Shown here in pieces: positions 3,287 to 36,181 of a stretch of 63,203 nucleotides of DNA. Numbering within the stretch: position 1 is the first letter of the stretch; every line of letters starts with the position of its first letter. Position numbers and translations under genes: made by a program. The stretch comes from a virus, in IMG/VR virus record IMGVR_UViG_3300036781_000090, positions 1 through 63,203 of that record, one strand, 5' to 3'. The notes under the pieces are model-generated. The model ran no database searches, was not told the DNA's origin, and saw only the letters and a list, made by a program, of their open reading frames with translations.

Positions 3287-3796
3287 CTAATGAGCAGCCG
3301 CAAGGCGCTCTTGTGAATGTTTAATCTCAGTTTTCCAGAACTGAGCCATATGTGTCTTATATTGCTGCCCGGGTTCGAGAATTTCACCGCACGCCAGATC
3401 GAAACATTCTTGTGGGTCAATCCCCATGGCCGAGAAGTTAAAGTCCATTAACATTGAGTCGCCATCCCAAACACTTGAATGCAAGTCGGAAGTGATGATT
3501 CTCCATGCCTTATTGGGGATCGCTCTCTCTGCAACAGCGAGGTTAAAGTTTACGAGCCAATGGCAAGCCGAATGCTTCGTGTAGTCCCAAAACGCTGGTT
3601 GGCGTCCGCGCCTCGCCGTGGAATATCTCCAATCACAGCTTTCAAACTCGGTCGGTAAATCTCCGTGCGAGAATTTCTGCCTCCATCGGCCCCAGGTGAA
3701 CCTATTGAAATCGCGCACTAGGATGCCCTGAACATCGTTCCTTTGAACGATGTTCCGTACTATTCTCCAGTTCTTTTGAATGTCGTAGTATTTCAT
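3287..3796 (-). CDS. Conserved phage/host hypothetical protein
   Basis: 169 residues from ATG at 3796, whose start overlaps the previous stop (ATGA). It contains AFWDYTKHSACHWLVNFN and WRIITSDLHSSVWDG, highly conserved-looking blocks that I remember from uncharacterised proteins in many proteobacteria and their phages. Several His/Asp/Trp could form an active site, but no known catalytic motif is evident. Confidence 0.7.
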   Translation of the reverse strand: MKYYDIQKNWRIVRNIVQRNDVQGILVRDFNRFTWGRWRQKFSHGDLPTEFESCDWRYSTARRGRQPAFWDYTKHSACHWLVNFNLAVAERAIPNKAWRIITSDLHSSVWDGDSMLMDFNFSAMGIDPQECFDLACGEILEPGQQYKTHMAQFWKTEIKHSQERLAAAH

Positions 3797-3972
3797 TTGG
3801 GGCTCAAACAACCTTGAACGGCACGGCGCGTATCCAGCGCCATATGTAGCTGACGCTCGACGTAGAACTCTGGACGGCTCAGCAACTTGCCAATGATCCA
3901 AGTATCCTGTTTCTGATCCCACAATTTCAGGATCGCCGCGCGCTCGTCTGACGTGCCTAGACCTATGAGCAT
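3793..3972 (-). CDS. Small HTH-like protein
   Basis: 59 residues, missed by length cut-offs. The segment SDERAAILKLWDQKQDTWIIGKLLSRPEFYVERQ (split here only for description, residues 8-41) reads as a helix-turn-helix of the GcrA/sigma-like kind. AAGGGGATAAA precedes the ATG. It is translationally coupled (ATGA) to the next gene. It is the first gene downstream of the promoter/operator at 4132-4161, a plausible place for a regulator. Confidence 0.6.
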   Translation of the reverse strand: MLIGLGTSDERAAILKLWDQKQDTWIIGKLLSRPEFYVERQLHMALDTRRAVQGCLSPK

Positions 3973-4131
3973 TTTATCCCCTTATAAACTTGGTAGCCAT
4001 CCGGCGTCCGAATCCATATCAGACCTTGCCTCATGGTTTAACCGGTGTACCATGAGTAACCGGACGGCCCGGTTGAGTGACTTGTATGGCTTGCGACCAT
4101 CGCTCCTGTTGTCTCAACCGTTTGTCAGGCG

Positions 4132-4161
4132 ACTATACCGGTTATTTTGACAGCCTGTCAA
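4132..4161 (-). promoter_or_regulatory. Promoter with palindromic operator (site A)
   Basis: TTGACAGCCTGTCAA at 4147-4161 is a perfect 7-1-7 palindrome. On the minus strand its TTGACA forms a -35 box, followed after 18 bases by TATAGT at 4137-4132. It would drive the genes from 3972 leftward. The same palindrome is found at three other promoters. Confidence 0.7.
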
Positions 4162-4514
4162 CCCTTATTTCTGACTATTTCCTGCATCTTTTGCAGGTTA
4201 TGCCGGGCGTCCCAAAGGGCCTTGGCAATGGGCAGCGGATCAATGCCCTTGGATTGCCACCACGCATATTCCCCGCGATTGTGAGCCGCGTCAGGCCCTA
4301 GACGATGCTCGCGGGGGCAAATTGGCAAGCACCACCGATGATCACGACCATTGAGTTTCTTGTATCTAGCATCGCTGAATCTGAGATGGCTTGCCTCGGC
4401 TTGGTCGCCACAAAGCAAACACGGGCATTGGCGAATGTGACGCAGGAATAAGCCAAACTCGTCTGGCTTGCGTTCCTTCTTAGACCGCGATCTGGTCTTT
4501 TCCAGAAACATCAC
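4158..4514 (-). CDS. HNH-like recombination nuclease (DUF968-type)
   Basis: 118 residues with CPCLLCG (about 31-37), ASHLRF, the DHRWCLPICPREHR block and a C-terminal GIDPLPIAKALWDARH. This is the pattern of the DUF968 / phage recombination-nuclease family, a zinc-bound HNH-type fold. It lies directly beside NinB and ERF, so a role in processing recombination intermediates of phage DNA is likely. Coupled by ATGA to the upstream membrane gene. Confidence 0.75.
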   Translation of the reverse strand: MMFLEKTRSRSKKERKPDEFGLFLRHIRQCPCLLCGDQAEASHLRFSDARYKKLNGRDHRWCLPICPREHRLGPDAAHNRGEYAWWQSKGIDPLPIAKALWDARHNLQKMQEIVRNKG

Positions 4515-4918: not shown

Positions 4919-5308
4919 TTAATGCTTAATCGCATCGTTGAATTGGACGCCATGTTCTGTACCGAAGGCCATCATGATTTCCATAACCGATGTCATTTCT
5001 TCTTTCGATAGGTCCGATGATCGGCGGAGACTTACAAGGCCATTTCCATCCAGGTTCGGCACTGTACGAATCTCTCCCTTCAGAGCATCCAAGAATATTA
5101 GACGCCAATCGTCAGGGGTTAGCTTCTGTCCGTGCCACGGTAACTGCCGCGCAATCTCAGTCAGCATAGCCCAGAAGCGAGAGTTTTGATCGAGCGTCCG
5201 CTTTGCTGCCTTTATCTCAACCCTAGACCCAGAGGGAGCCGCAGCGATAATGCTGGCTGCATTCGCGCGGTCCCCTTTAGAGTTCAAGACTACCGTGTAC
5301 CGGCTCAT
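4919..5308 (-). CDS. ninB: NinB / Orf-type recombination mediator
   Basis: 129 residues matching the NinB (lambda Orf) family: RTLDQNSRFWAMLTEIA (about 37-53), PWHGQKLTPDDWRLIFLDALKGE and a C-terminal MMAFGTEHGVQF. Lambda Orf binds SSB-coated single-stranded DNA and helps load the annealing protein. Here the gene overlaps the ERF gene by four bases, the classic pairing of mediator and annealase. Confidence 0.9.
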   Translation of the reverse strand: MSRYTVVLNSKGDRANAASIIAAAPSGSRVEIKAAKRTLDQNSRFWAMLTEIARQLPWHGQKLTPDDWRLIFLDALKGEIRTVPNLDGNGLVSLRRSSDLSKEEMTSVMEIMMAFGTEHGVQFNDAIKH

Positions 5309-6159
5309 TTTTTAATGGACTTCAGGTGGGTGAGTTGTCCCCGATATACGTCCCGAAGAAACTCCTGCCAATCATAAGGAAGTGTGGCAACGCGGTTGGC
5401 GTTGGTGTCACCCCAGGTTTTAAGCGCGGCCTCGGTCACTATGGCCCTGATTTCTGACTGCATTGCTGCAAATTCTGGCTTCGCCATTGCCTTGGACAAA
5501 CGAGTTACTTCAGGATCGCCAAGAGGGATATTGTTGATTGGGTTGCCCTGCTCGTCCTGCTCGATAGGCTCGATAACGTCAGACGGCTCCGTGACGTGCG
5601 GGTTCTGTCTCTTGCCCTTGCGGGCGTCATCATCGGCGGCTGCGGAAAGCCCAAGGGCGGCTTTGAGGGTATAACGCTGCAAATACGTGATGGTTGACCC
5701 TACGGCCTGAATTTTGTTCTTGCTCCCGCTCACGTCATGAGCACCAGTCAGGCTGTTTTCCTCGGCGTGGCCGTCGCGGTGGGAGATAATGCAGGTAACC
5801 GTTACGGTCGTATTGTCCGATAGAGTACGGAAACGATAGGATAGGCCAACTGATGCTAGAATAGGGTCAATCGTGCGAGAGATTTCAGCCAAATCCTCAT
5901 GAGAGTAATTGGTGTTCCCGTAATTGACCTGACGATTCTTGAATATAACCGGGATTGAGGCTTTGGCGCTCGCCATAGCATTATCAAATGACTTGCGAGC
6001 TTCGTTCTTTTCAAACCGTTCTTGAAGCGTCATAAGCCTCTCAGCAAGCTCAATATTGCCATTGGCAACCGCCTGATTAAGCAAGCTCATTGGCGTGATG
6101 GCCGTGCTAGCGGCTGGCGGGATAACCTGGATTTCCTGTTTCTCTGCGGCGTTGCTCAT
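5305..6159 (-). CDS. erf: ERF family single-strand annealing protein
   Basis: 284 residues from the ATG preceded by AGGA. The core (about 45-190) holds FDNAMASAKASIPVIFKNR, YSHEDLAEISRTIDPILASVGLS and GSTITYLQRYTLKAALGLS, the ERF superfamily signature of P22 Erf. It would coat and anneal single-stranded phage DNA for recombination and concatemer formation in the cytoplasm. The C-terminal third is variable, as in relatives. It is coupled to NinB downstream. Confidence 0.93.
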   Translation of the reverse strand: MSNAAEKQEIQVIPPAASTAITPMSLLNQAVANGNIELAERLMTLQERFEKNEARKSFDNAMASAKASIPVIFKNRQVNYGNTNYSHEDLAEISRTIDPILASVGLSYRFRTLSDNTTVTVTCIISHRDGHAEENSLTGAHDVSGSKNKIQAVGSTITYLQRYTLKAALGLSAAADDDARKGKRQNPHVTEPSDVIEPIEQDEQGNPINNIPLGDPEVTRLSKAMAKPEFAAMQSEIRAIVTEAALKTWGDTNANRVATLPYDWQEFLRDVYRGQLTHLKSIKK

Positions 6160-6161
6160 GT

Positions 6162-6422
6162 TCAATTCCTGTGTTTCTTGATTTGCTCTTGCGCAATCCT
6201 GACAACCAGAAGCGCGGCGGCTAGAGTGGTTGCGGCATTCTTTAGCGCCTCGTCTATTTCGGTGTCATAGATCGGCGTATCGGCCAGAATTTGCATGTAG
6301 TGCTGCAAATCGGCAGCATTCTTAGTCATCTTGTTGGTATGCAGTTCGATGCCATCCAGTGCGATAGATCGCAGATTGTTGTCTGGAAAGGCGACAAATA
6401 CCGGAATTTCTGTATCAGCCAT
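6162..6422 (-). CDS. Hypothetical protein upstream of ERF
   Basis: 86 residues from MADTEIP; AGGAGG lies just upstream of this ATG. Acidic N-terminal half, helical Ala-rich C-terminal half. It could be an ERF accessory factor by position only. Confidence 0.6.
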   Translation of the reverse strand: MADTEIPVFVAFPDNNLRSIALDGIELHTNKMTKNAADLQHYMQILADTPIYDTEIDEALKNAATTLAAALLVVRIAQEQIKKHRN

Positions 6423-9801: not shown

Positions 9802-9839
9802 CTGTGGCTCTCAGCGGATATCAATCATAAACGATGAAT

Positions 9840-9910
9840 TGGCGGCCCACCTAGGAATCGAACCTAAGAAGTTGCGGTAACGTTACCTCCGCACCCCACC
9901 CAGTCAGGCC
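9840..9910 (-). other. tRNA-like 3' half
   Basis: On the minus strand, the T-arm TTAGG-TTCGATT-CCTAG (9867-9851), the acceptor 3' strand GTGGGCC (9850-9844), a discriminator G and an encoded CCA (9842-9840) look like the 3' half of a tRNA. Upstream, TGCGG/CCGCA pairs around an 11-base loop instead of 7, and no proper D-arm or matching 5' acceptor is found. It is best read as a degenerate tRNA or tRNA mimic, not a functional tRNA. Confidence 0.45.
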
Positions 9911-9934: not shown

Positions 9935-9963
9935 TTGACAGCCGTGCAACAAAATAATACAAT
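9935..9963 (+). promoter_or_regulatory. Strong sigma70-type promoter (site E)
   Basis: TTGACA (9935-9940), a 17-base spacer and TACAAT (9958-9963) form a near-consensus promoter 30 bases before the ATG at 9994. The -35 region TTGACAGCCGTGCAA is a degenerate copy of the palindromic operator found intact elsewhere. It should start the rightward GcrA-GapR-DnaA operon. Confidence 0.75.
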
Positions 9964-9993: not shown

Positions 9994-10236
9994 ATGAAGA
10001 TTGATGCGCGCGATTTGCTCAACCATGCCGAAGTCGAAAGGCTTTTGGCGGAAATACACCGGGCGGCCAAATGGCTACAGCGTTCCCCTGGTGGACTAAC
10101 GGCAGAGCTAGTTGGCAACGGTCGAATCCCTGAGCGCCTAGAGGCTGGCGGCTCTGTGCTGCATTCCACGGCGAAGAAATTGCGCGCGCTTATGGACAAG
10201 CGGATCAAGAAGCTAATTGAGGCGGATAAGAAGTGA
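9994..10236 (+). CDS. First gene of the rightward operon
   Basis: 80 residues from the ATG preceded by AAGG. Helical and basic (KLRALMDKRIKKLIEADKK at the end). No family recognised. It overlaps the GcrA-like gene by GTGA, so the two are co-translated and may work together. Confidence 0.65.
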   Translation: MKIDARDLLNHAEVERLLAEIHRAAKWLQRSPGGLTAELVGNGRIPERLEAGGSVLHSTAKKLRALMDKRIKKLIEADKK

Positions 10237-10661
10237 CTTTCTGGACTGAAGATCGGATCGAGTGGTTGCGCCGGAACATCCATAACGGCCTATCGTCGGG
10301 TGTCACGGCATATCAGATTGGCTGCACACGAAACGCTGCAATAGGCAAAGCTAATCGGATGGGACTGCATTTCAAGTCTAAGGAAGGCCACAAGAGAAAG
10401 CCTATGGGTGGCAAACGAGTGCGTAAAAAGCCCATATTTATTGAACAAATCTACCCTTATCAGGAGGCGACCGTGGTTCCAGAACCAGTTTACGAGCCGC
10501 TACATCTGAGCTTTGGCCAGCTAAAGGATAGCCCGAAAATCTCGCAGTGCCGGTTTATCACATGCGATGGACCAACACGCTACTGCGGTCAACCCGTGAT
10601 CGCGGATTCGTCATGGTGCAAGCATTGCGCAAAGATCGTCTATCACCAGCGCGCGGCTTAG
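10233..10661 (+). CDS. GcrA-like cell-cycle regulator
   Basis: 142 residues, GTG start in a GTGA overlap. The N-terminal WTEDRIEWLRRNIHNGLS...CTRNAAIGKANRMGLHFKSK (about 4-49) matches the GcrA helix-turn-helix, in which the TRNAVIGKxxRLGL motif is diagnostic. The C-terminal CRFITC..TRYCGQPVIADSSWCKHCAKIVY (about 106-136) matches the conserved Cys/Gly end of GcrA that contacts sigma70. In alphaproteobacteria GcrA activates promoters carrying CcrM-methylated GANTC. A phage copy could redirect host RNA polymerase or read methylated phage promoters. The middle linker is basic and proline-containing as in relatives. Confidence 0.85.
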   Translation: MTFWTEDRIEWLRRNIHNGLSSGVTAYQIGCTRNAAIGKANRMGLHFKSKEGHKRKPMGGKRVRKKPIFIEQIYPYQEATVVPEPVYEPLHLSFGQLKDSPKISQCRFITCDGPTRYCGQPVIADSSWCKHCAKIVYHQRAA

Positions 10662-10693
10662 CGTTAACAATAGGTTAATGGACAGGAAATAAA

Positions 10694-11107
10694 ATGGGAC
10701 AAGCAGGAATTGGTGCGATGCTACACTACTTAGGCGGCGGTTCTAAGCACGATCCTAAGGAATATTACGGGCAAACGATTTTGGCCGCTGATATAGCCGA
10801 CGACAAACTAAGCCTAAAGCTTGATGGTGGGAAAACCATTGAAATTTGGGATAATGGCCAATCCTGCTGCGAGAACCGCTACATGCGGACGGATGACGAT
10901 CTCTCATCTTTAGTTGGCAATACTCTAGTTCGCATTGAAGCCAAGGATGGCCCTGACATTGGCGATAACGATTATGATGTTCATGAACAAGTGTTTGTGG
11001 AGGTCGGGACCGACAAGGGTTTTATCACCATCGCCAATCACAATGAACACAACGGCTATTACGGCGGCTTTGGTCTGACCATCACCGAGTCCGACGAACA
11101 GCGTTAA
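10694..11107 (+). CDS. DUF7448-like phage protein
   Basis: 137 residues. The block GQSCCENRYMRTDDDLSSLVG and the end NEHNGYYGGFGLTI are typical of a widespread phage protein family (I recall it as DUF7448) with no known activity. The start has AGGAAATAAA upstream. Confidence 0.75.
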   Translation: MGQAGIGAMLHYLGGGSKHDPKEYYGQTILAADIADDKLSLKLDGGKTIEIWDNGQSCCENRYMRTDDDLSSLVGNTLVRIEAKDGPDIGDNDYDVHEQVFVEVGTDKGFITIANHNEHNGYYGGFGLTITESDEQR

Positions 11108-11135
11108 GTATCCAACAATGAACAAGGAGAGTTAA

Positions 11136-11439
11136 ATGCTCTATGATCCGAAGTGGGAAAAGATTGAAACAAAGGCCGATCCGCACAGCGTTGCTGGGAT
11201 TGATTGTTTGGTTGGAGAATCAACCAGCAGATAAAATATATTGCTATGAGGACAGTGGCCGGTGTTTGGCTGCTCAATATCGGGCGGCTATTGGCGAAAA
11301 ATACATTCCTCCGGGCGCAGATTTGTCGATATTGCGCCTTCCGAAATCTGAATGGCCATTTACCGATATTCTGGAGGATGTTGCGGTTAAAAAACCGCGT
11401 ACTTTTGGTGCTGCTCTAAAACGTGCTCGTTCATTGTAG
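11136..11439 (+). pseudogene. Frameshifted gene
   Basis: The natural start is ATG at 11136, with AGGAG five bases upstream; this frame reads MLYDPKWEKIETKADPHSVAG and stops at 11232-11234. The rest of a coherent protein (WLENQPADKIYCYEDSGRCLAAQY onward to 11439) lies in the +1 frame. The join falls near GCTGGGATTG at about 11197-11206, where one extra G would explain the shift. I remember a Rhizobiales phage family that reads through this region as one protein. It is a pseudogene, a programmed frameshift or a sequencing error. Confidence 0.65.
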
Positions 11440-11457
11440 TGCAGTGTGGAGACAAAG

Positions 11458-11676
11458 ATGTCTGAAACCGAAGCGGAAGCAGCTTTCGCCGCACTGAGAG
11501 TCGCGGAACAAGAATGTTGGTCGATCAATTGCCAAAATTACCCTACGGGCGGTGGAGATGCTGAAGTCGGTTGGGAAGTTATCAGCCATTGGCAGGCTGA
11601 GCCACGCGAACGAGTAGAAGGGTATGGAAGAACTCCTCTTGAGGCCCTTAAGGAAGCTATCGCAAAAAATCGCTGA
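11458..11676 (+). CDS. Hypothetical protein
   Basis: 72 residues starting MSETEAEA after GGAGACAAAG. The segment GDAEVGWEVISHW and the terminal GRTPLEALKEAIAKN suggest a small alpha/beta fold. Family not recognised. Confidence 0.6.
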   Translation: MSETEAEAAFAALRVAEQECWSINCQNYPTGGGDAEVGWEVISHWQAEPRERVEGYGRTPLEALKEAIAKNR

Positions 11677-11707
11677 TATCACTGAACAACAAACAACGGG
11701 AGATTTT

Positions 11708-11845
11708 ATGCCAGACATGCACCTGATGGATTACTACTTCCACAAGATGGTTACTGCGGTTGGGCCAGAATGGCGCATTGCTCGCCGCCGTGCCTATCAG
11801 CACGGCTTCAATAGCGGGTGGACAAACCTTAAGGAGCCGGTCTGA
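11708..11845 (+). CDS. 45-residue hypothetical protein
   Basis: Starts MPDMHLMDYYF after GGGAGATTTT. Helical, with ARRRAYQHGFNSGW. Stop overlaps the next start (TGATG). Family not recognised. Confidence 0.55.
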   Translation: MPDMHLMDYYFHKMVTAVGPEWRIARRRAYQHGFNSGWTNLKEPV

Positions 11846-12030
11846 TGAAAACGGGCGACCCCGACATGCCTGACTTGAGCTTGTGCAGCTTCGAATATCT
11901 TGCCGCCGAAATGAGGAAGCGTGGTGCGACCGTTACGCCTGCGCCTCACGGTGGTGACTTTGAAAGCCCGATGCAGCACATCGCTGACGACATTCGCGAT
12001 GGCGTTTTCCCGCGCAAGTCGCCGCGTTAA
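11845..12030 (+). CDS. 61-residue hypothetical protein
   Basis: Shares one base with the upstream stop and has AAGGAG in the upstream gene. No motif recognised. Confidence 0.55.
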   Translation: MKTGDPDMPDLSLCSFEYLAAEMRKRGATVTPAPHGGDFESPMQHIADDIRDGVFPRKSPR

Positions 12031-12054
12031 CACCCTGTAAGCATTGAGGACGCT

Positions 12055-12291
12055 ATGTCTGACAGAGACGCGCATATCGCTATCATGGTTGCTGCCGCCA
12101 GAGGCGTCGGCTTGCGTCTGTCTGCTGATGAAGTCTGGGCGCTATCTCAGGATGAAGCCATCGTAGCAGCCGCTACAAATGGTCTCGACGAGATCGACTG
12201 GCCAGGTCACGCCGATGCTAAATCTTACGTCCGATGGGAAAAGATTAAGCGTTATCGCAAAGGGCGCATCGGTAAGAATTTCGCGGTTTAA
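12055..12291 (+). CDS. 78-residue hypothetical protein
   Basis: ATG follows TGAGGACGCT. The segment LSADEVWALSQDEAIVAAA is an acidic helix pair; the C terminus is basic (KIKRYRKGRIGK). Family not recognised. Confidence 0.55.
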   Translation: MSDRDAHIAIMVAAARGVGLRLSADEVWALSQDEAIVAAATNGLDEIDWPGHADAKSYVRWEKIKRYRKGRIGKNFAV

Positions 12292-12331
12292 CTGTTAACG
12301 GCCCGTCAATGAACAACAAACAGGAGAGAAC

Positions 12332-12634
12332 ATGAAAGAGGGAAATAATAGCACAGCCGAGCGCAACGAATATGGGGCTCGTATCAACAATCTACATAAT
12401 CAAAAAGACGATATCGATCAGGATATCAAAGACATTTACCTTGAGGCAAAGAGCAAAGGAATTGAAGTTCCGGTTCTTAAGCGCGCGGTGAAACTGCTGC
12501 GCGAAGATGAGGAAAAGAAACGCAAGCGTTTGGAAATTGAAGAGGAAGCCGAATTGGTGGCGAAGTCCTTGGGAGAATATCTCAATACGCCTTTGGGCCA
12601 AGCCGCCGTCCGTAATGTTCTAGTGGCAGGTTGA
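12332..12634 (+). CDS. GapR-like (DUF2312) nucleoid protein
   Basis: 100 residues. INNLHNQKDDIDQDIKDIYLEAKSKGIEVPVLKRAVKLLREDEEKKRKRLEIEE (about 18-70) follows the DUF2312/GapR pattern of coiled coil, DIKEVYAEAK helix and ILRKVI-type helix. GapR in Caulobacter is an essential nucleoid-associated protein that clamps overtwisted DNA ahead of forks and promotes topoisomerase action. The phage version extends further at the C terminus (about 30 residues). Leader ATGAACAACAAACAGGAG precedes the start. It sits immediately before a DnaA-domain-IV gene. Confidence 0.8.
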   Translation: MKEGNNSTAERNEYGARINNLHNQKDDIDQDIKDIYLEAKSKGIEVPVLKRAVKLLREDEEKKRKRLEIEEEAELVAKSLGEYLNTPLGQAAVRNVLVAG

Positions 12635-12637
12635 GTC

Positions 12638-13204
12638 ATGAGCCTGTACGAGTATCAACCAACTACGTCAGAATTGAAATTCTATCGAGACAGACAGCGC
12701 GCGCGGGCTAATATGGAAGCCCGCGCCAAGCCAATTAAGCATACCATCAAGTTTAATCTACCGGAGCGCGGCTCCTTCGATTTCTGGGAAATGCCAAGCC
12801 CATGTCAAGGATTTGAAATCAAAACTATTAATGCGGACCGACAGTTATCCCATGTATTTTATACGATTCGAGAAATCCAGGAAATGGTCTGCCTACTTGG
12901 CCACGTTACCTTGAACGATCTTATTTCAGCCCATCGGCATCAAAACATCTGTAATGCGCGCCATGTTGCGGTGGCCCTTTGTCGGGTTTTTACTAGTCGG
13001 TCAATGCCAGAAATAGGCCGTATGTTTGGTGGAAAGGATCATTCAACTATCCATAATTCTATTACCAAAATGAAACCTGTAGTTGCGGAAATTGAATGGT
13101 CATTCAATGCTCAATCTCTGGAGTACATTGTGCGCTCTGCGCTTGATGTGTGTTGGCGTCTATATCCGCCTGCAAAATATTCGCGACATGGCGCTAGGCC
13201 ATAA
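12638..13204 (+). CDS. DnaA domain IV-like DNA-binding protein
   Basis: 188 residues with no ATPase domain. Residues about 90-147 match DnaA domain IV: VTLNDLISAHR, then ARHVAVALCRVFTSRSMPEIG and FGGKDHSTIHN (130-140), the last being the DnaA-box-binding signature (usual form FGGRDHTTVxH). The N-terminal 85 residues are basic and unrelated. It would bind DnaA boxes without loading helicase, so it could compete with host DnaA or act as an origin-recognition factor for the phage. It lies three bases after the GapR-like gene. Confidence 0.87.
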   Translation: MSLYEYQPTTSELKFYRDRQRARANMEARAKPIKHTIKFNLPERGSFDFWEMPSPCQGFEIKTINADRQLSHVFYTIREIQEMVCLLGHVTLNDLISAHRHQNICNARHVAVALCRVFTSRSMPEIGRMFGGKDHSTIHNSITKMKPVVAEIEWSFNAQSLEYIVRSALDVCWRLYPPAKYSRHGARP

Positions 13205-13206
13205 AA

Positions 13207-13761
13207 ATGAAGAAAAGATATAGACTTCCATCTCAGGAACTTCTCAAATCTCGTTTAAATTACAATCCAGACACTGGGATATTTACGTGGATAATAAAAC
13301 CGGCTTGGGGAACTTACATAGGTGATATAGCTGGCGGCCCGCGAAGAAAATCCCACGGAACTTATTTAGCCATTAAGATTTTGGACTACGGTCAAATTGA
13401 CTCTCATCGACTTGCTTGGATTTACGTCCACGGCTCGATTCCAGACGGCATGGAAATTGACCACAAAGACCGGAACCCATCCAATAACCGTCTATCGAAT
13501 CTTCGGCTAGCCACTTCCTCAGAGCAAAAACGCAACAAAGGTGTTCAGTCAAATAATCGTTGCGGACTTAAGGGCGCTTTTTACCACAATAGGCATGAGG
13601 GGAAACCAAACTACGCCTCTTGCAAGAATTGGCGATCACAGATCAAAGCGCCGGATAAAAAGCTGATCTTCCTCGGGTATTTCCATACGCCAGAAGATGC
13701 CCATGAAGCCTACAAGGCGGCGGCTGTTAAATATTATGGCGAATGGGCTTGCTTAGGATAG
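13207..13761 (+). CDS. HNH homing endonuclease with AP2 domain
   Basis: 184 residues. The HNH core DSHRLAWIYVHGSIPDGMEIDHKDRNPSNNRLSNLR (about 61-96, key residues H, D-H and N) is followed by an AP2-like DNA-binding domain ending FLGYFHTPEDAHEAYKAAAVKYYGE (about 154-178). Free-standing enzymes of this type cut phage DNA and spread by homing. It is inserted between the DnaA-IV gene and promoter site C. Confidence 0.9.
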   Translation: MKKRYRLPSQELLKSRLNYNPDTGIFTWIIKPAWGTYIGDIAGGPRRKSHGTYLAIKILDYGQIDSHRLAWIYVHGSIPDGMEIDHKDRNPSNNRLSNLRLATSSEQKRNKGVQSNNRCGLKGAFYHNRHEGKPNYASCKNWRSQIKAPDKKLIFLGYFHTPEDAHEAYKAAAVKYYGEWACLG

Positions 13762-20116: not shown

Positions 20117-20722
20117 ATGCAGTATCTCTACGTCCGTAATTGGGCGACATTTCAGCACTACAAATATCGCAATCCGCCGTGGATTAAACTCCACCGGGAA
20201 ATTCTCACAAGCACCGATTGGGTTTCCGTAGATGATGCTAGCAAGCTGCTAGCAATCGTCTGCATGATCGTGGGCGCTAAGGATCAGGGCCGCGTGCCTA
20301 ATGATCCGGCGTTCCTTAAGCGGATAGCCTATCTAGATAAGCTTCCAAATCTTAAACCATTGATTGAATGTGGGTTTCTCACAGAAACGCTAGCAGATGC
20401 TAGCAAACGGGAGCAACTGCGTACAAATGCTCCGACAGAGTCCAGAGTCCAGAGTTCAGATACAGATTTAGAAAGTAAGAAAGTTGATGATGATGTTAAG
20501 AAAAACGGAAAGGGGGATAAAAAAACAAAACCCCAGCATCTTCAGCAAACCCGTGACGGCAAGCGGCTGTGGTGCGACCAAGGGACTTCCGAATGGGTAG
20601 CCTATCTGAATGATTTCAAAGCTGCGCACTCAGGGGTAGACCCAAAGATCGAATGGAATGGCGCTGGCGCATGGTTTAATACGGAAGGGGAAATTAGGAT
20701 GGCTAAGGCTGTTCCAAAATAG
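20117..20722 (+). CDS. Replication-initiation-type protein
   Basis: 201 residues. The N-terminal block NWATFQHYKYRNPPWIKLHREILTS...LIECGFL (about 8-88) matches a winged-helix domain found at the start of many alphaproteobacterial phage replication proteins (O-protein/DnaD-like role). The middle is a charged linker (KKNGKGDKKTKPQ), and the end holds DGKRLWCDQGTSEW. Such proteins bind the origin and bring in the host helicase. The start codon is preceded by GCGGGG inside a hairpin, so translation may be controlled by RNA folding. Confidence 0.65.
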   Translation: MQYLYVRNWATFQHYKYRNPPWIKLHREILTSTDWVSVDDASKLLAIVCMIVGAKDQGRVPNDPAFLKRIAYLDKLPNLKPLIECGFLTETLADASKREQLRTNAPTESRVQSSDTDLESKKVDDDVKKNGKGDKKTKPQHLQQTRDGKRLWCDQGTSEWVAYLNDFKAAHSGVDPKIEWNGAGAWFNTEGEIRMAKAVPK

Positions 20723-22582: not shown

Positions 22583-22981
22583 ATGCCAGCTAAGAAATCA
22601 ATTAAGCCAGCGCAACCAACTATAACATTTCCCGCGCCTCAGGAAATGAAAGACTGGGTTCGCGCCCAAGCTGATGCGGATAGGCGTACTTCTAGCGCAT
22701 GGATGCGGTTGGTCGTGGAACGAATGATGGTTGGTGAGGGCCATTTTTCTGTTGAAACTCAGCCTAATCAAGAGCAGTATGTACAGGAAGATCAATCAGA
22801 TAGCACTGTAAGTCCGGATGATCTGGTTGCCGCCGCGCTTCAGACGGCAGAACAGCAAGGGGCTACGGAACCACAATACGAGGAAGTTCCGCAGCCACAA
22901 GGCGTCCGCAGTCTTCGCAAGCCAGTCAGCCGCCTATCTCCGGGAAATCACGGACAAATCGAAAGGTTCTTGGGGCGATGA
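22583..22981 (+). CDS. Ribbon-helix-helix-like protein
   Basis: 132 residues. The N-terminal ITFPAPQEMKDWVRAQADADRRTSSAWMRLVVERMM (about 14-49) has the beta-strand plus two-helix layout of RHH DNA-binding domains. The rest is acidic, Gln-rich and disordered, ending SPGNHGQIERFLGR. It could be a regulator of the rightward late region, where it is the first gene. Its stop overlaps the nuclease start by ATGA. Confidence 0.6.
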   Translation: MPAKKSIKPAQPTITFPAPQEMKDWVRAQADADRRTSSAWMRLVVERMMVGEGHFSVETQPNQEQYVQEDQSDSTVSPDDLVAAALQTAEQQGATEPQYEEVPQPQGVRSLRKPVSRLSPGNHGQIERFLGR

Positions 22982-23358
22982 ATATTCTCTGTGGTATACT
23001 GTTCGCGTGCAGCCTAAGTGGGCCTGCATTGACCGTAGACGGCGACACAATTCGAGTATCAGGACAATCTGTGCGTCTTTTCGGGGTGGATAGCGAAGAA
23101 CTATCGGAGCCCAATGGCTATGCGGCCAAAGCCGCGATGGTTAAAATCGTTAGCGGCCATACGATTTCCTGTGAGCCGAGCGGCAAGTCCTACAATCGCG
23201 TAGTCGCGACATGCAAAACCGAACAAGGCATTGATATTAACGCGGAAATCATTAAAGTAGGCGCTGCGCTTGATTGCGCTCGATACTCAAAGGGCAAATA
23301 CCGTCAGTTTGAACCCGAAGGCGCAAGGGCGCGGCTCATTCAGAAGGGGTATTGCTGA
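22978..23358 (+). CDS. SNase-like nuclease
   Basis: 126 residues. VDGDTIRVSGQSVRLFGVDSEEL (about 20-42) contains the staphylococcal-nuclease-fold calcium/active-site motif (DGDT and the Arg of RLFGVD). CEPSGKSYNRVVATC matches the YGRxVAxC part, and the end is the usual Glu-rich helix. The first 17 residues are hydrophobic and may act as a signal peptide. Exported nucleases of this kind degrade DNA outside the cytoplasm; role for the phage unknown. Confidence 0.8.
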   Translation: MNILCGILFACSLSGPALTVDGDTIRVSGQSVRLFGVDSEELSEPNGYAAKAAMVKIVSGHTISCEPSGKSYNRVVATCKTEQGIDINAEIIKVGAALDCARYSKGKYRQFEPEGARARLIQKGYC

Positions 23359-35054: not shown

Positions 35055-35146
35055 GTTTCCGGCCAATTCAAACTGCTGCGGCAACGGCAGAAAGTCACGA
35101 TTTCTAATCACGACGCCGAGCGCGCGTGAAATAGGAGTCGATGAAT

Positions 35147-36181
35147 ATGTTCCTAACTTTGGCCGATATTGGTCGCCGTATGGACCCCGAAGGCAAAATT
35201 GCCGACATGGCAGAGTTGCTTTCTCAGTGTAATGAGATGGTTGATGACATGCCGATGGTGGAGGCCAATGGCCTTACCACGCACGTTACGACCGTCCGCA
35301 CTTCGCTGCCCAAGGGCTCTTACATTCGGTACTACCAGGGCACGCAGTACACAAAGTCTAACGCGGCTCAGGTTGAATTTGGCATGTCGCTGCTCCGCGA
35401 TTACAGCCAGATCGACAAAGAGCTTTGCAAGCTCGGTGGTCAGGAAAGCGTCCAGCGCGAAAAAGAAGATGTTGCGCACATGGAAGGTCTTTCCCAGCAG
35501 CAGTCCACGACGCTGGTGTACGGAAACACTTTCACATCGCCGGAACAGTTTACCGGCTGGTCGCCGTTCTTCAACACGGTATCCACGACCACGGCTCAGA
35601 ACGCGGTTAACGTGTTCGACTGCGGCGGCACGGGCGGCTCGAACGCTTCTATCTGGCTCATCGGTTGGGGCGAATCGACGGCCTACGGCATTTACCCGAA
35701 GGGCTCCAAGGGCGGGTTGGTGTTCGAAGACAAGGGCGATGTTGTCCCCGGCTTCGATGCTTCAAACCTGCGCTTTGAAGCCTACACGTCGATGTTCCAG
35801 TGGCAGCTTGGTCTAGCCATCGAAGACTGGCGCTATACCGTCCGTCTCTGCAATATCGATACGACCACGGCTGGCCTGCTTGGTCCGACGCCGCCCGATC
35901 TGTTCGCGATCCTCTCGCGTGCGGTTGTCCGACTTCCTACGGCTGGCCGTACTGTATCGGGCATTACCAAGACCGACGCGCCGGACAAGATGGCACCGGC
36001 CATCCGTCTCAAGCTCTATATGAACCGTACAGTCCGAGCGGCCTGCGATATTCAGGCCATTCGAGACAAGAACGTCCTGCTTTCTCCGACCGATTATGCA
36101 GGCAGGCCTATCGTCAATTTCAGAAATATTCCGCTGGGGGTGCAAGATTCGATGCTTTCCAGTGAAAGCCGCGTTGTTTAA
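35147..36181 (+). CDS. Major capsid protein
   Basis: 344 residues from ATG 35147, nine bases after AGGAG; ATG 35141 is only three bases from it and less likely. PMVEANGLTTHVTTVRTSLP, YGNTFTSPEQFTGWSPFFNT and DKNVLLSPTDYAGRPIVNFRNIP match the BPP-1 (Bbp17)-type HK97-fold capsid family. It forms the icosahedral shell. Terminated after the next gene by a strong hairpin. Confidence 0.93.
   Translation: MFLTLADIGRRMDPEGKIADMAELLSQCNEMVDDMPMVEANGLTTHVTTVRTSLPKGSYIRYYQGTQYTKSNAAQVEFGMSLLRDYSQIDKELCKLGGQESVQREKEDVAHMEGLSQQQSTTLVYGNTFTSPEQFTGWSPFFNTVSTTTAQNAVNVFDCGGTGGSNASIWLIGWGESTAYGIYPKGSKGGLVFEDKGDVVPGFDASNLRFEAYTSMFQWQLGLAIEDWRYTVRLCNIDTTTAGLLGPTPPDLFAILSRAVVRLPTAGRTVSGITKTDAPDKMAPAIRLKLYMNRTVRAACDIQAIRDKNVLLSPTDYAGRPIVNFRNIPLGVQDSMLSSESRVV

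Follow-up and report, generated by a model that had tools for sequence, protein, structure and literature searches.

A GcrA-like, a GapR-like and a stand-alone DnaA domain IV gene in a plausible single early operon of a complete phage record, and the recurrence of these families as neighbours in unrelated phages

Why would a phage carry shortened relatives of GcrA, GapR and DnaA, proteins with which its bacterial hosts govern DNA replication and S-phase genes, within 3 kb of one strand? This question is raised by the virus record IMGVR_UViG_3300036781_000090, which was analysed over its whole length (63,203 bases, hereafter the window) and which is complete, with a 127-bp direct terminal repeat. 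The original prediction, made from the letters of this DNA, was that a GcrA-like protein, a GapR-like protein and a stand-alone DnaA domain IV protein are encoded in one phage operon, and open reading frames (ORFs) of these three types were indeed found at 10233..10661, 12332..12634 and 12638..13204, all on the plus strand. Their grouping is real, because the families recur as neighbours in unrelated phages and are once fused, and it represents a swappable cassette, not a fixed system. We tentatively read it as a cassette of small, host-derived and host-directed DNA-binding proteins in the early operon of an alphaproteobacterial phage, sitting, on our best reading, beside the phage's replication functions.

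The 188-aa protein encoded at 12638..13204 matched Bac_DnaA_C (PF08299) over residues 78-144 with 72.2 bits against a cut-off of 31.5 (E=3.5e-20), and matched DnaA domain IV in the PDB by sequence (1j1v, E=1e-10). Its AlphaFold2 model had a mean predicted local distance difference test (pLDDT) score of 80 (approximately 95 over residues 81-150) and superposed on 1j1v, a complex of the box with E. coli DnaA domain IV, with a template modelling score (TM) of 0.81 by target length, so that profile search and folding both bore out the domain IV assignment. The domain itself, at residues 76-148, carries the helix-turn-helix fold, the GG(R/K)DH(T/S)T signature and the base contacts, and is preceded by an N-terminal arm made up of a helix (residues 10-29) plus disorder. 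Fold and base-contacting residues are thus the same as in host DnaA, whereas domains I-III are missing: PF08299 was the sole Pfam match, no AAA+ domain or DnaA domain I was found in the protein, and its remainder gave no fold match. The protein is therefore a DNA-binding domain, not an initiator. In E. coli DnaA, residues R399, R407, P423, D433 and H434 have DNA-contact roles. The window protein retains the equivalents of all five (E. coli numbering, taken from 1j1v by alignment), and none of them varies across an alignment of 26 phage proteins. Because of this invariance, recognition of DnaA boxes has, as far as residue conservation can tell, probably been retained. Single-sequence searches of IMG/VR for close relatives of this protein and of the GcrA-like protein gave no match.

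GcrA family proteins bind domain 2 of sigma70 and activate promoters with methylated GANTC sites. The 142-aa protein encoded at 10233..10661 matched PF07750 with 47.7 bits against a cut-off of 26.9 (E=2.8e-12; residues 4-141 of 142, profile positions 3-149 of 155), so that both parts of this two-domain family (PMC7403470), the helix-turn-helix DNA-binding part and the sigma-interacting part, are covered. It also matched PDB 7ye1 (E=1.5e-5) and shows a WT..R...TRNA.IGK motif and a CR-YCG-WC pattern (QCRF..YCGQP..WCKHC). The 100-aa protein encoded at 12332..12634 is a divergent member of the GapR family, matching PF10073 (DUF2312) over residues 16-65 with 39.7 bits against a cut-off of 22.6 (E=3.7e-10) and PDB 6ozz with E=2e-7. 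GapR contacts DNA through the basic residues K34, K42, K49, K56, K59, R63 and K66 (PMC8510090), and six of these seven positions are still basic in the window copy when aligned to 6jyk/6ozz: K34, K42, K49 and K59 are kept, R63 is replaced by K and K66 by R, and K56 has become P. Searches with hidden Markov models thus upheld both family assignments, each match lying above its curated Pfam cut-off.

The layout of the locus makes a single operon for the three genes plausible. Between a leftward gene block (ERF/NinB) and the rightward block, a consensus scan found a candidate early rightward promoter of near-consensus sigma70 type (9935..9963, +; TTGACA-17-TACAAT, 11 of 12 positions), in a scan where promoter-like sites were overall no more numerous than in shuffled sequence. 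A small ORF (9994..10236, +; 80 aa, no Pfam match) overlaps the start of the GcrA gene by four bases (GTGA), and the GcrA gene is followed by one for a DUF7448 protein (10694..11107, +; PF24240, E=2.3e-17). Approximately six small ORFs, mostly with no function assigned, separate GcrA from GapR. The GapR and DnaA domain IV genes are 3 nt apart, and the gene of a homing-type HNH endonuclease (13207..13761, +; PF13392, E=2.4e-19; phrog_99, E=1.7e-56) starts 2 nt past the DnaA domain IV stop. Promoter, overlap and tight spacing agree with the phage operon that had been proposed.

The recurrence of these genes was assessed by profile scans of approximately 200 IMG/VR and GenBank loci (labelled L below), among which 55 loci with a stand-alone DnaA domain IV remained after dereplication; as loci were picked by one of the genes, without a host-matched background, the resulting enrichment is indicative only. 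GapR was present in 26 of the 55 (17 within 1.5 kb on the same strand), GcrA in nine (six within 1.5 kb) and both in three. In counts from partly redundant loci, 60 of 64 DnaA-GapR pairs were on the same strand, mostly within 1.3 kb, as were 33 of 33 DnaA-GcrA pairs. GapR was the commonest Pfam neighbour of DnaA domain IV genes (7 of 148 immediate neighbours from 25 loci, the next family reaching 3), and 13 of 50 phage records with GapR or DnaA domain IV carried GcrA above the Pfam cut-off. GapR was found in at least 154 of 50,697 GenBank phage records, and GcrA-like genes in 15 phage records when a Caulobacter GcrA fragment was the query. The full trio was rare (4-5 of approximately 200 loci), strict trios being L161, where the genes are consecutive, L169, L041 (with a short DnaA match), L138 (with GcrA below the Pfam cut-off) and the window. 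Weak 'GcrA' matches in L036, L115, L138 and L144 resemble generic helix-turn-helix proteins and were not counted as firm; those of L036, L115 and L138 fall short of the Pfam GcrA cut-off, and the strict trio list still includes L138.

Among 18 structural relatives, records with the window capsid protein at 64-90% identity (some of them incomplete), GapR was found in none, DnaA domain IV in one and GcrA in four, which marks the trio genes as exchangeable cargo and not phage core; the 11 relatives that were mapped have the structural genes in common with the window and almost nothing of its early half. The proposal that the three proteins act together therefore stood in part: the gene families truly associate in phages, probably of alphaproteobacteria, whereas 'one system' goes too far for a trio that is rare and that structural relatives lack. 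These relatives would also suit an explanation in which small DNA-binding passengers, the three genes having no connection to one another, have collected by chance in an early operon that acts as a store of exchangeable genes in alphaproteobacterial phages. The almost whole replacement of the early half, the rarity of the trio, its varying gene order and the HNH gene that follows it fit such passengers, whereas the pairwise same-strand linkage of DnaA with GapR and with GcrA, the lead of GapR in the neighbour list and the existence of a fusion gene do not, and we regard this explanation as very doubtful.

The fusion gene lies in L180 (IMGVR_UViG_3300016667_000580, 3365-4195) and encodes one protein of 276 aa in which a GcrA sigma-interacting domain precedes a DnaA domain IV. 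The N-terminus scored 36.1 bits for GcrA in Pfam and matched PDB 5yix by sequence (E=2.9e-4) and by fold (5yix_B, TM 0.73), the C-terminus scored 85.9 bits for DnaA domain IV and matched the 1j1v fold (TM 0.80), and both domains exceed their Pfam cut-offs. The gene starts within the stop of a RusA-like ORF (ATGA overlap), and GapR lies approximately 1 kb upstream. A second copy was sought in viral and genome contigs and none was found, which leaves L180 as the only example. The fusion is the freshest lead of this analysis, and the recurrent pairing of DnaA domain IV with GcrA, once in a single protein, is its most surprising result, although it lies outside the window. If genuine, such a union of sigma binding and DnaA-box binding in one protein would define a novel class of transcription factor, potentially also useful for reading DnaA boxes in vivo.

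DnaA serves as a transcription factor in Caulobacter, and the fusion favours a role of this kind, in which the DnaA domain IV protein would work with the host sigma70 holoenzyme alongside GcrA, boxes and GANTC sites would be promoter addresses, and replication would not be the target. GcrA and DnaA domain IV genes lying within 1.5 kb on one strand, adjacent or nearly so, in L126, L135, L148, L161 and L173 point the same way. However, the fusion is limited to its one contig, the DnaA domain IV protein of the window has no sigma-interacting domain, and phage DNA has no box cluster and only a weak, borderline excess of boxes near the gene (see below), and we consider a purely transcriptional role rather improbable. 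Longer DnaA homologues that include the AAA+ domain were also seen in viral contigs L113, L116, L118, L119, L145, L162 and L171. Several of these contigs place the homologue near GcrA or GapR (GcrA being adjacent or near in L113, L116 and L162), and some, such as L171, may represent DNA of the host or of a chromid.

Binding sites in the phage DNA were mapped with the E. coli box consensus only, and the phage or host box may differ. TTWTNCACA occurred once in the 63-kb window against 3.9 expected, and 40 times against 41.2 expected in 86 DnaA domain IV loci; TTATCCACA was absent from the window. Clusters of boxes were found neither in the window nor, at 3 in 500 bp, in the 86 loci, and a search for box clusters and iterons near the window operon gave none. 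GANTC was present 121 times in the window against 254 expected (0.48), the most depleted of the 16 palindromes of this form. This depletion was common to most of the examined loci with these genes and is consistent with an alphaproteobacterial host with CcrM. Lack of a box cluster together with GANTC depletion gives no support to the idea that phage DNA recruits DnaA or GcrA, and the suggestion of the original prediction that DnaA and RNA polymerase are diverted to phage DNA was accordingly not sustained.

Repeats of another kind were found in L124, L127, L146 and L178, where 5-7 TTCCACCGGAA-type repeats are arrayed inside the ORF after GapR, as in lambda O; these arrays (L127:7331-7696, L124:3136-3235, L146:10229-10579 and L178:7363-7713) are candidate phage origins, and three scanned ORFs of this set match PHROG replication-initiation or primosomal families. 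With iteron-bearing, probable initiator ORFs following GapR, some phages keep their DnaA domain IV and GapR genes next to what are likely phage origins. This arrangement argues for a different explanation, that DnaA domain IV and GapR belong to the phage's own replication module, while GcrA shares the operon as an independent gene acting in transcription. The DnaA domain IV protein would then mark the phage origin or assist its opening, partnered by an O-like initiator that loads host DnaB, and GapR would relieve positive supercoils ahead of phage forks. The top place of GapR among the Pfam neighbours, the GapR gene directly before a primosomal DUF1376 protein in Bradyrhizobium phage ppBeUSDA76-2, and the AAA+ DnaA homologues of some phages, a few of them near GapR, are further points in its favour. 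However, no DnaA-box cluster was found in the DnaA domain IV loci, the iterons that do occur differ from DnaA boxes, and domain IV on its own is unable to unwind an origin. In the window, the initiator candidate (20117..20722, +; phrog_26426, E=1.8e-12) lies 7 kb downstream and holds short repeats only (20229-20258, 20391-20409 and 20436-20460, a weak origin candidate), clear iterons of the lambda O-type module being found only in other loci. We consider such a replication module quite possible, and the nearness to likely phage origins keeps it close to the host-directed model.

In the host-directed cassette that we tentatively prefer, the DnaA domain IV protein, without the AAA+ and helicase-loading domains, would occupy host DnaA boxes at oriC and at DnaA-controlled promoters, and would there compete with DnaA or alter the DnaA regulon. 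The GcrA-like protein would bind host sigma70 and favour GcrA-type (S-phase) promoters, the GapR-like protein would bind overtwisted DNA and aid topoisomerases ahead of both phage and host forks, and the phage, with no DNA or RNA polymerase, helicase or methyltransferase seen by Pfam, would have to rely on the host S-phase machinery. That the host is the target, that DnaA is competed with and that replication is affected at all is what we infer from the family assignments, the domain IV fold, the conserved contact residues, the operon layout and the recurrent linkage, all of which speak for this reading, as does phage DNA without box clusters combined with probable retention of box recognition. 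The six basic contact positions of the GapR-like protein, the GcrA match over both functional parts, the L180 fusion and the GANTC depletion count in its favour too. If it is correct, phages attack several nodes of the alphaproteobacterial cell cycle simultaneously, using pared-down host regulators, and the cassette supplies small, directly testable proteins. A bolder version, which we think unlikely, is that alphaproteobacterial phages have built a modular S-phase takeover kit in which DnaA domain IV, the GcrA sigma-binding domain and GapR are recombined as neighbours or fusions, host DnaA boxes recruit sigma70 RNA polymerase, and host initiation is blocked.

Several observations weigh against the host-directed cassette. 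DnaA domain IV and GapR often adjoin phage replication-initiation genes, and a phage-directed role fits equally. Within 1.5 kb of the DnaA gene, boxes slightly outnumber expectation (12 against 6.7, borderline), a box other than the E. coli type may be used, and phages with AAA+ DnaA homologues likewise have no nearby boxes, so the lack of boxes cannot separate the models. The E28-R65 structural pair of GapR (PMC7373187) is replaced by N and L in the window copy, which makes clamp formation by this protein uncertain. Structural relatives live without the cassette, and a search for the host via the capsid protein in GTDB genomes gave no match.

No paper joining GcrA, GapR and phage, or describing all three proteins together, was found among the open-licence papers searched. 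The view that these proteins had not been described was nonetheless not sustained: the GcrA part was published in 2012 for phiCbK-like Caulobacter phages (Gill et al., PMC3556154) with the same replication-state hypothesis, and GapR is spread over the GenBank phage records counted above. An effect of phage GcrA on the replicative state of the host is proposed in PMC3556154 and PMC9437464; the phiCbK-like phages share with the window a protein of the GcrA family, one suggested to drive the host into replication, but are 200-kb siphophages with their own DNA polymerase, and a GapR or DnaA domain IV partner is not discussed in the available portion of PMC3556154. Caulobacter phage DMCA (PQ480021) has GapR and GcrA approximately 1.6 kb apart on one strand beside replication genes, but no DnaA domain IV was detected in the stretch, and this phage encodes a replicative helicase and methyltransferases of its own. 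Bradyrhizobium phages ppBjS10J-1 (OP596615) and ppBeUSDA76-2 (OP596614) resemble the window in a leftward ERF/NinB block, a divergent control region and a rightward block with DnaA domain IV and GapR, but have no GcrA, place DnaA domain IV before GapR, and are akin to the window by gene content only. Synechococcus phage Ssp-JY42 (PP438432) has an annotated GcrA and a DnaA C-terminal protein on one strand, with no GapR found in the stretch. The E. coli prophage protein YfdR also acts on DnaA-dependent initiation but, according to the available part of PMC4776307, binds the DnaA protein and is not a DnaA-box-binding domain.

The rest of the window is divided between a structural and an early half. 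By Pfam and PHROGs the structural half is of podovirus type (head-tail connector, GP7-type capsid protein, terminase, internal virion proteins and endolysin), and its portal is approximately 34% similar to that of epsilon15-like phages; searches for DNA-level relatives among GenBank phages and for RNA families across the window gave no match. The early half contains ERF, NinB and HNH proteins and the one probable replication protein, with the NinB and ERF recombination proteins in the leftward block (4919..6165, -; NinB PF05772, E=2.6e-31; ERF PF04404, E=9.2e-22). The 21 Pfam families matched by 89 ORFs include neither a polymerase for DNA or RNA nor a helicase, an integrase or a methyltransferase, and replication and transcription are thus presumably host-dependent. 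On the minus strand, 9838-9865 reads AGGTTCGATTCCTAGGTGGGCCGCCA and resembles the T-arm and acceptor end of a tRNA, and ARAGORN and Rfam found no tRNA there. The window region 35141-36181 and relatives L206-L247 belong to phages of 61-67 kb in which the structural half is conserved and the early half almost wholly exchanged. The early half also encodes a small staphylococcal-nuclease-like protein (PF00565) at 22978-23358.

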